Below the pieces are notes generated by a model that worked only from the letters and a program-made list of their open reading frames with translations, searched no databases and had not been told where the DNA came from. A stretch of 64,000 bases of DNA. Origin: Mycoplana azooxidifex. Lineage in GTDB: Bacteria > Pseudomonadota > Alphaproteobacteria > Rhizobiales > Rhizobiaceae. The position numbers and the translations under genes are program-made. The stretch spans positions 124,001-188,000 of the forward strand of contig NZ_JACIEE010000007.1 in assembly GCF_014196765.1 (NCBI RefSeq), read 5' to 3'. This document shows, in pieces, positions 20,608-22,437 of this stretch; the stretch's first letter is position 1; every line of letters starts with the position of its first letter.

Positions 20608-20681
20608 TCCTGCAGGCTTATGCCTTCTTAGTGTGCGCGGAATTGCCCATATGAGTGGCATCGAAAGAATGGAGAAAAAAG

Positions 20682-20819
20682 ATGAACATTCGTCAGAAGA
20701 TCAAGGACTTTGCCGCCCGCCGCAAGGCTATCCGTGAACTGCACATGCTCGACGACCATACCCTGGCCGATATCGGTATCTCGCGTTCGCAGATCCGCTC
20801 CGCGGTTGTCGGCCGCTAA
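20682..20819 (+). CDS. DUF1127 (YjiS-like) small basic protein
   Basis: A 45-residue protein, MNIRQKIKDFAARRKAIREL followed by HMLDDHTLADIGISRSQIR and ending SAVVGR. The RELHMLDDHTLADIGISRSQI core is the DUF1127 signature. Members are small arginine-rich alphaproteobacterial proteins; in Rhodobacter one (CcaF1) is encoded with the CcsR sRNAs and binds RNA. GGAG precedes the ATG by 9-10 nt. Remarkably, an array of CCTCCTCCC-loop hairpins, the motif of those sRNAs, lies 440 bp away on the opposite strand. Confidence 0.9.
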   Translation: MNIRQKIKDFAARRKAIRELHMLDDHTLADIGISRSQIRSAVVGR

Positions 20820-21248
20820 GCGTCATTGACGCTGTCCATCGGCGATCGGCCACGCCGGTCCGCCGATCGTGCCCGGGTCACCATCCGGGCGACGCCGATC
20901 AGGCCCGCAGTTCGGGCCTCGGCAGCAGGGCGCGGCAACCGGCCACGAAGCCCAACTCCCCAGCATGCAGCAATCGTCAGTTCGGCGGGTCGTGACCTTC
21001 GGTCGCCATCCGCTTTCTGCATTTCCGCGTGAGGGTCGACAGCGTCGGCCGGACCATAGTCGGCGCGACATCGGACGGCGGCTCGCCTCGACGCCCATGC
21101 GCTGGCCTCTCCCGGCCCGACGAGGCGCGAAAGGATGCGGCAATCCATACAGCGATGAGACGCGCGCATCGGATGGAGCGAGTCCATCCAGCCCCGGCGA
21201 ACAACGGCCCGCGCCTTCGATGCGGCTAAATATGCAATGAGACACCCC
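20820..21248. other. Intergenic region after the DUF1127 gene
   Basis: No gene is supported. Two adjacent hairpins follow the DUF1127 stop: CGATCGGC...GCCGATCG (20843-20869) and GCCCGG...CCGGGC (20871-20890). They may serve as terminators although no T tract follows. The rest (about 20900-21240) shows no ribosome site, domain or repeat that I can recognise. Confidence 0.5.
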
Positions 21249-21414
21249 CAAAAAACGAAAAGCCTGCCGCGGGAGGAGGTGCGGCAGGCTTTCCAAAAGA
21301 ACCGAACAACAGCTGGGAGGAGGAGTGCTGTTGTTCTTCGCAAAAACCCCTGGGAGGAGGAGTGGGGTCTTCGCGACCTCGAAGCTCTGCGGGAGGAGGT
21401 GCATTGCTTCGATG
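21249..21414 (-). ncRNA. Tandem anti-Shine-Dalgarno hairpin sRNA array (cuckoo/CcsR-like)
   Basis: Four consecutive hairpins each display CCTCCTCCC in the loop when read on the minus strand. Plus-strand positions in transcript order are 21412-21379, 21374-21340, 21336-21304 and 21290-21261. The last two have perfect 10-bp stems. The second (21374-21340) forms an 11-bp stem only as minus-strand RNA, through three G-U pairs; as plus-strand RNA those positions would be A-C mismatches. That fixes the strand. A T-rich tail (21260-21250) after the last stem gives a terminator. The loop is complementary to ribosome binding sites. The same motif defines the cuckoo RNAs of Rhizobiales and the CcsR RNAs of Rhodobacter. 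Whether one or several RNAs are made is unknown. Confidence 0.85.
21250..21290 (-). terminator. Terminator of the hairpin array
   Basis: The perfect 10-bp stem AGCCTGCCGC/GCGGCAGGCT (21290-21261 on the minus strand, loop ACCTCCTCCC) is followed by TTT-CG-TTTTTT. The last sRNA hairpin therefore doubles as the terminator. Confidence 0.85.
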
Positions 21415-21420
21415 AAGTTG

Positions 21421-21426
21421 ACTATA
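21421..21426 (-). promoter_or_regulatory. -10-like element before the hairpin array
   Basis: On the minus strand TATAGT (21426-21421) lies 9 bp before the first stem, which would place a transcript start close to 21414. No convincing -35 is seen 16-18 bp upstream, so an alternative sigma factor is possible. Confidence 0.35.
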
Positions 21427-21564
21427 CGCGACTCTCGCCTAATTCATAGGCAGGATTTCACAAGCCAGATATGCGTAAATCGAATAGCTCGATCGCGAAA
21501 CACGGTCGGCCCCGGGGTGCACTGCAATGTCCCGGCAAAGACCAACGATTCGGGTTTGCAACGC

Positions 21565-22365
21565 TCAGTCGTCGGCCGGGTGCCCGGCCGTGACGAAGAC
21601 GCCTCCCTGATAGAGCGTGGCGGGATTTGCCGGATCCTCGGGACCGGTCTGCGCCATAACCTCGGCCCGCCACTTCTCCGCATTATCCTTCGGCCGCCAG
21701 CCGAGGAAGGCGACCTTACCGTTGTCCCACCACTGCTCGTCGTTGTCGGAAGCGCCGTAGACCACGGTATGGCCGATCTGCGGCGCGGCGAAAGCGCGCT
21801 GGCAGAGCGACAGCAGGTCGCGCTTGCTGAGCCAGCTCGCCAGCATCCGCGGGTTCTTCGGCTGTTCGAAGCAAGATCCGATGCGCACCGACAGTGTCTC
21901 GATGCCGAACTTGTCGTAGTAGAGGCTTGCCATCGCCTCGCCGAACACCTTGGAGACCCCGTAGAGCGAATCGGGCCGCGGCACGACGGTATTGTCGATG
22001 CGCTGGTCGCGGCGATAGTAGCCGACCACATGATTAGAGCTGGCGAAGACGATCCGCGGCCGGCCGTTGCGACGGGCGGCCTCGTAGAGATTGTAGAGGC
22101 CGACGATATTGCCCTGCAGGACGAGGTCGAACGGCTTCTCGACCGACACGCCGCCGAGATGGATGACGCCGTCGACGCCTTTCATGAGCGCGTCGACGGC
22201 CGCTGCGTCCGCCAAGTCGCAGCAGCTGAAGCGCTCGTGGGCCTGCAGGTCGCCGATATCGGACAGGTCGGAGAGGACCACCGTCTCCGCCAGTTCCTGC
22301 AGCAGGGGGCGTAGCGCTGTTCCGACGCCACCCGCGGCACCTGTCATCAAGAGCGTTTTCAGCAT
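21565..22365 (-). CDS. udh: Uronate dehydrogenase
   Basis: Cytoplasmic NAD-dependent short-chain dehydrogenase of the extended type, 266 residues. It oxidises D-galacturonate or D-glucuronate at C1 to the aldaro-lactone. The cofactor loop is GAAGGVG (residues 9-15), the conserved SSNHVVG strand is present, and the catalytic pair is Y135/K139 (YGVSK). The length is nearly that of the Agrobacterium enzyme (265). The ATG at 22365 follows a GGAGG site. It is the last gene of an operon whose other members import uronates and process the lactone. Confidence 0.9.
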   Translation of the reverse strand: MLKTLLMTGAAGGVGTALRPLLQELAETVVLSDLSDIGDLQAHERFSCCDLADAAAVDALMKGVDGVIHLGGVSVEKPFDLVLQGNIVGLYNLYEAARRNGRPRIVFASSNHVVGYYRRDQRIDNTVVPRPDSLYGVSKVFGEAMASLYYDKFGIETLSVRIGSCFEQPKNPRMLASWLSKRDLLSLCQRAFAAPQIGHTVVYGASDNDEQWWDNGKVAFLGWRPKDNAEKWRAEVMAQTGPEDPANPATLYQGGVFVTAGHPADD

Positions 22366-22437
22366 CGGGCCTCCACGAATGCCATCCTGTCCGACACATG
22401 CGGACCTTTCGAATTTCCGGTCATCAGGCACCAATTT

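Follow-up and report, generated by a model that had tools for sequence, protein, structure and literature searches.

The 64,000-nt stretch of DNA analysed here (the window) contains a small RNA unit on the minus strand. An epimerase-type gene on the same strand ends ~150 nt before the RNA, and a gene for a small DUF1127 protein lies ~430 bp from it in convergent orientation. The locus comprises the following features.

20655..20819, plus strand: gene for a DUF1127 small protein of 54 aa (PF06568, 43.3 bits; cut-off 23.3)
about 21250..21415, minus strand: small RNA of ~166 nt, with the 5' end placed by alignment to SmelA099 and the 3' end in a T run
21257..21294, minus strand: hairpin 4, loop word at 21271-21279; terminator-like, with G and six T directly after the stem (21256-21250)
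21304..21336, minus strand: hairpin 3, loop word at 21315-21323
21338..21376, minus strand: hairpin 2, loop word at 21352-21360, 13 pairs including two G-U
21379..21412, minus strand: hairpin 1, loop CCUCCUCCC at 21391-21399, outside the ar14 model match
21421..21426, minus strand: -10 box TATAGT, placed by alignment to Sinorhizobium meliloti pSymA, with no convincing -35
21462..21474, minus strand: LsrB/VtlR box GCATATCTGGCTT, an exact match to GCAT-N3-TG-N3-T at ~-59 to -47 from the predicted start
21471..21484, minus strand: weak T-N11-A element TTCG-N6-GCAT, which aligns with TGCA-N6-GCAT of the NfeR1 promoter
21565..22434, minus strand: epimerase-type gene

The first-pass annotation had described four minus-strand hairpins that share one loop, and both the word count and the predicted fold confirmed this description. 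The window contains precisely four copies of the word CCTCCTCCC, all on the minus strand and within 129 bp (21271-21399); shuffled windows contained a mean of 0.88 copies, and four matches anywhere were found in 3 of 100 shuffles. Folding of the minus-strand RNA 21425-21240 yielded the four hairpins at -80.5 kcal/mol (z -5.98; matched by none of 200 shuffles). For the plus strand of the four-hairpin region, z was -1.97, 9 of 200 shuffles did equally well, and hairpin 2 failed to form. The accompanying claim that one stem pairs only through G-U did not hold for hairpin 2 as worded, since two of its 13 pairs are of this type; both of these do turn into A-C mismatches on the other strand. In relatives, the ratio of G-U to A-C cells was 14:1 for hairpin 3, 3:0 for hairpin 1 and 23:16 for hairpin 2, the last tally including several out-of-register rows. 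These counts support the minus strand, hairpin 2 less so.

Hairpin 1 consists of 7+3 pairs flanking a 2x2 purine internal loop. This purine-rich loop and the nearly invariant stem sequence recur in most loci and may mark a site for a protein or an RNase. The terminator that had been proposed at the last stem and its T-rich tail corresponds to hairpin 4 with the G and six T that follow it, which is terminator-like. A simple terminator scan did not report hairpin 4 (loop of 10, limit of 8) and flagged hairpin 2 with the adjoining TTTTT instead. This TTTTT 3' of stem 2 is a terminator-like feature of the window alone among 30 loci and could yield a two-hairpin product.

At the Rfam cut-offs, ar14 (RF02344) was the sole RNA family matching the window: the full model (1-123) aligned to 21255..21380 of the minus strand with 107.1 bits against a cut-off of 58.8. 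The three CCUCCUCCC hairpins that characterize ar14 are present as hairpins 2-4, and the window has one hairpin beyond the model. The covariance search suggested at first pass thus came out for ar14 and not for CcsR1 (RF02791), for which 36.1 bits lay below the cut-off of 65.3; ar7, also considered as the family, scored under its cut-off. The window unit is 81.2% identical (E 1e-34) to 1328173-1328357 on the minus strand of S. meliloti 1021 pSymA, the place of SmelA099 (smrA6; RFM SmelA099), an RNA of 160 nt listed from deep sequencing at 1328175-1328334 on the minus strand (PMC2873474; also PMC7143759). SmelA099 is described as carrying four CCUCCUCCC hairpins and SmelA075 three, and a single family with a variable number of modules has been proposed (PMC3927594). 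Four adjacent CCUCCUCCC-loop hairpins with variable stems, the definition given there for the SmelA099 type, are found in the window, the stem of hairpin 4 being nearly invariant. Because of its four CCUCCUCCC hairpins and its homology at the SmelA099 place, the window unit is, as judged by sequence, a member of the described four-hairpin SmelA099 form. The first-pass assignment to the anti-Shine-Dalgarno sRNAs of the cuckoo/CcsR kind on the minus strand was accordingly borne out by the ar14 match, the fold and the SmelA099 homology. Both units also have the -10 and the box at the same positions. They differ in that a convergent DUF1127 gene is present in the window, whereas no such gene turned up within 3 kb of SmelA099 (L034), and in that the transcript is known in S. 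meliloti, whereas the window unit is known here from sequence.

Copy number, which had been left open, can now be given: ar14 is found at three places in this genome, namely the four-loop unit of the window and two three-loop units in tandem on another contig (C6). A search of plasmid records with 21240-21460 returned 490 records, of which at least 486 carry the name of a Rhizobiaceae genus (Rhizobium, Sinorhizobium, Agrobacterium etc.). Among 151 Rhizobiaceae genomes, our own included, 146 match ar14 at E ≤0.001 and 137 lie above the cut-off. The four-hairpin form is patchy; of the listed genomes of the same genus, one has it in full (G145), one shows a partial match only (G209) and one none (G054). 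Our set of four-hairpin loci numbers 33 including the window (L037), three from plasmid records and 30 from genome BLAST, in which 85 of 247 family genomes matched. Thirty of the 33 pass a loose four-loop filter; the three that fail (L064, L065 and L066) are variant four-hairpin units with the fourth loop shortened to CTCCTCCC. A TPP riboswitch lies near the four-hairpin RNA of a Rhizobium lusitanum plasmid (L036, 2343-2438).

DUF1127 genes are found at five places in the genome, three of which (window 20655-20819, C6:84875 and C6:85370) are beside the two ar14 loci. Within the fetched flanks (mostly 1.5 kb), 17 of the 33 four-hairpin loci have such a gene, upstream on the same strand in 15 cases and convergent in two (the window and L038). 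The association between DUF1127 and these RNAs has already been published as the CIN1 locus (PMC10253847).

Compensatory change, the lack of which the first-pass annotation took to count against the array, was observed in stems 1-3. Cells with a pair changed on both sides numbered 41 for hairpin 2, 27 for hairpin 3 and 8 for hairpin 1 (19, 18 and 21 distinct rows, respectively), cell counts that were reached by 0 of 500 shuffles. These figures cover 27 of the 30 loci for hairpin 1 (L059, L061 and L063 left out for length changes), 26 for hairpin 3 (L034, L059, L061 and L063 left out for the same cause) and 23 for hairpin 2, from which L035, L040, L041, L050, L053, L055 and L058 were dropped as out of register and whose counts still contain some other out-of-register rows. 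The proportion of paired cells was 96.7% in hairpin 1, 98.3% in hairpin 3 and 72.7% in hairpin 2, the low value being due to indels in several rows. Sliding the partner strand as a control gave fewer both-side changes, for hairpin 2 at +1 just two cells less (41 vs 39). The number of both-side-changed pairs in hairpin 3 was not outstanding (reached by 198 of 500 shuffles); the same holds for the additional pair types of hairpins 3 and 1 (112 and 134 of 500, respectively). The 34-base core of hairpin 4 is identical in 29 of 30 loci, too invariant for a covariation test, and no pair counts were made for it. This near-invariance, in a unit whose hairpin 2 drifts freely (L034-L063), is not required by structure alone. 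Taken together, the comparisons support a four-hairpin structure that is probably under selection in stems 1-3.

The TATAGT noted earlier just before hairpin 1 lies at 21426-21421 and aligns with a pSymA hexamer that ends 6 nt ahead of the listed 5' end of SmelA099. A sigma-70 scan of the window promoter region gave no match, and the -10 therefore rests on this alignment. Upstream of it lies an exact copy of the published VtlR/LsrB box consensus, GCAT-N3-TG-N3-T (PMC8844928, PMC7486931). The box is found 74-76 nt ahead of the first loop in 32 of the 33 four-hairpin loci, the window included; over the same loci, the reversed pattern was found in none and shuffles gave a mean of 0.28 and a maximum of 3. 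The BLAST query (21240-21460) excluded the box. The 33 loci are of common ancestry and thus not independent, but the sequence surrounding the box has diverged in large part. On pSymA the first base of the box is at -59 relative to the SmelA099 5' end as listed; the box of the S. meliloti abcR1 promoter is reported at -61 to -49 (PMC8844928). Among loci fetched with the ar14 model, 15 of 45 clusters have the box at the same place, and none has the reversed pattern. GCAT-N3-TG-N3-T alone occurs ten times in the window, and the argument is therefore carried by position and conservation. In the 5.9-Mb genome, a search for the box followed after 30-42 nt by TATANT, made after a first guess at the operator had been replaced by the published box, gave two places (one for the reversed pattern): the window unit, and a site ahead of the DUF1127 gene at C6:84875, which neighbours the remaining ar14 copies. 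That first guess, GCATNGSTGNNNTGC, occurred at 11 places against 5 for its reverse and missed the window copy.

Alignment of the four-hairpin loci revealed a longer conserved upstream block, GCATRGCTGCNNTGCA, to which the reverse complement of the motif reported for Brucella VtlR/LsrB, CAATGCAGCCATGCA, fits (PMC12595884). The count for this longer operator is 30 of 33, with L036 anchored at the wrong loop; in the short-box count L036 is placed correctly. The window has 4 mismatches in the 14 specified bases, the worst fit of the 33 loci apart from the misanchored L036, and its closest relative (L038) has 3. Because of these mismatches, activation could be weaker in the window, where the longer operator appears degenerate. 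The NfeR1 promoter is described as containing a T-N11-A motif, TGCA-N6-GCAT (PMC10746234), from which TTCG-N6-GCAT of the window differs by two mismatches; ~35% of shuffled upstream regions were equal or better, and the element is not significant alone. A check of the window sequence by eye did not show the NtrC site known from the NfeR1 promoter.

The genome has two ar15 places. On L151, a LysR-type gene stands directly ahead of tandem ar15/AbcR RNAs, and a similar box is present 47 nt ahead of these RNAs (C9:141962-141976). None of the 25 NCBIfam models listed for the LysR-type gene reached its cut-off, and we therefore name it LsrB/VtlR by position. AbcR1/AbcR2 resemble the window RNA in their reported LsrB/VtlR-box promoter (AbcR1) and anti-Shine-Dalgarno action on transport mRNAs (PMC8844928); they are nevertheless a different RNA, separately present in this genome.

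Collectively, these data make it probable that the locus encodes a free-standing, LsrB/VtlR-activated, trans-acting sRNA of the ar14/cuckoo family, SmelA099 form, which silences mRNAs by covering their Shine-Dalgarno sequences. NfeR1, an ar14 RNA that has been studied, is reported to be activated by LsrB and to silence ntrB through its loops, with three redundant motifs (PMC10746234). NfeR1 (SmelC397) and the window RNA have in common the loop motif, hairpins 2-4, a terminator-like final hairpin and an LsrB-type promoter, whereas ar14 has three hairpins and the window an additional 5' hairpin. An NfeR1-like mechanism is the best reading because of the same loops, the LsrB-type box and the LysR-type gene beside the ar15 RNAs; for the window RNA itself, we infer its expression, the binding of LsrB, and the pairing and silencing. 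The LysR-type activator LsrB/VtlR, whose gene lies elsewhere in the genome beside the AbcR sRNAs, would bind at ~-59 to -47 and recruit RNA polymerase to a promoter that has a -10 and whose -35 is poor. The ~166-nt transcript would end at hairpin 4, and the CCUCCUCCC loop of each hairpin would pair with purine-rich Shine-Dalgarno regions of selected mRNAs, above all transporter mRNAs, thereby blocking ribosome binding. The four equal loops would provide redundancy, and shorter processed forms may remain active.

Perfect GGGAGGAGG-N2-9-ATG sites number nine in the genome against four in a reversed control, a small excess. Four of the nine precede frames of at least 190 aa, encoding two transport permeases, a PHB regulator and a SoxYZ-type protein, and the other five precede open frames of at most 62 residues. 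The PHB accumulation regulator (PF07879/PF05233; L155, 928-1503) starts 8 nt after a perfect GGGAGGAGG, the complement of the loops, and is a candidate target. ntrB is the best-known target of NfeR1; its copy in this genome, whose neighbour ntrC passes TIGR01818, pairs moderately with the sRNA and was rejected as a distinctive target, since equal or better pairing was seen for 13 of 107 ORF starts and for 79 of 500 random stretches. Given the small excess of sites and the indistinct pairing of ntrB, target claims for the window RNA are weak.

It is unlikely that the loops serve instead as a bulk decoy that mimics the 16S anti-Shine-Dalgarno and, along the lines suggested at first pass, ties up ribosome-binding sites or competes with 16S rRNA, so that translation in general is lowered. 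Such a role would fit four identical loops that equal the described anti-Shine-Dalgarno motif, and the retention of the loop words while the stem of hairpin 2 drifts; it would require a very high copy number, however, and NfeR1, the published relative, targets single mRNAs by means of redundant loops (PMC10746234).

We consider it distinctly unlikely that the unit represents two tandem CcsR-like RNAs of two hairpins each, the first (hairpins 1-2) ending at the TTTTT after stem 2 and the second made up of hairpins 3-4. The CcsR1 model does align full length to hairpins 1-2, 3' of which the terminator-like call was made, but its 36.1 bits are far under the cut-off, a TTTTT ≤20 nt past loop 2 is confined to the window among the 30 four-loop loci, and SmelA099 is listed as a single 160-nt RNA. 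Rhodobacter sphaeroides CcsR1-4 share with the window RNA the CCUCCUCCC loops and a nearby DUF1127 gene. They are described as sharing a transcript, made from an RpoHI/RpoHII promoter, with the DUF1127 gene ccaF1 (PMC10253847), whereas the DUF1127 gene of the window is convergent and so not arranged for co-transcription.

An origin as the processed 3' UTR tail of the epimerase-type mRNA is very improbable. The gene is close and on the same strand, and this order is retained in L078 and L079, but these two are the only ones among 62 epimerase-relative loci with an RNA cluster in the fetched stretch, so that the synteny was rejected as a family-wide feature; moreover, the box and -10 region accompany the RNA into other loci. 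The chance that the locus is a palindromic, for example REP-like, repeat element with no regulatory role is close to negligible: a recurring loop word and several inverted repeats are present, but the fixed order of the hairpins, the compensatory changes and above all the conserved promoter box at its fixed position largely refute it.

The RNA kind and its four-hairpin form have thus already been described (SmelA099), and what is added here is the assignment of the promoter box. In the literature outside subscription journals, we found no paper linking SmelA099 with LsrB/VtlR and little functional work on the four-loop form, and the SmelA099 row of a review table is empty in the column where other rows give sigma factors (PMC7143759). 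A published operator at a fixed place in 32 of 33 loci provides a likely regulator for the four-loop RNA. It could also add to the explanation proposed for Agrobacterium, in which VtlR reaches many genes via few sRNAs (PMC7486931). We lean towards the view that four-hairpin SmelA099-type RNAs are a core, unnamed arm of the LsrB/VtlR regulon in Rhizobiaceae, and that LsrB/VtlR, AbcR, the cuckoo RNAs and DUF1127 may form one conserved anti-Shine-Dalgarno circuit.
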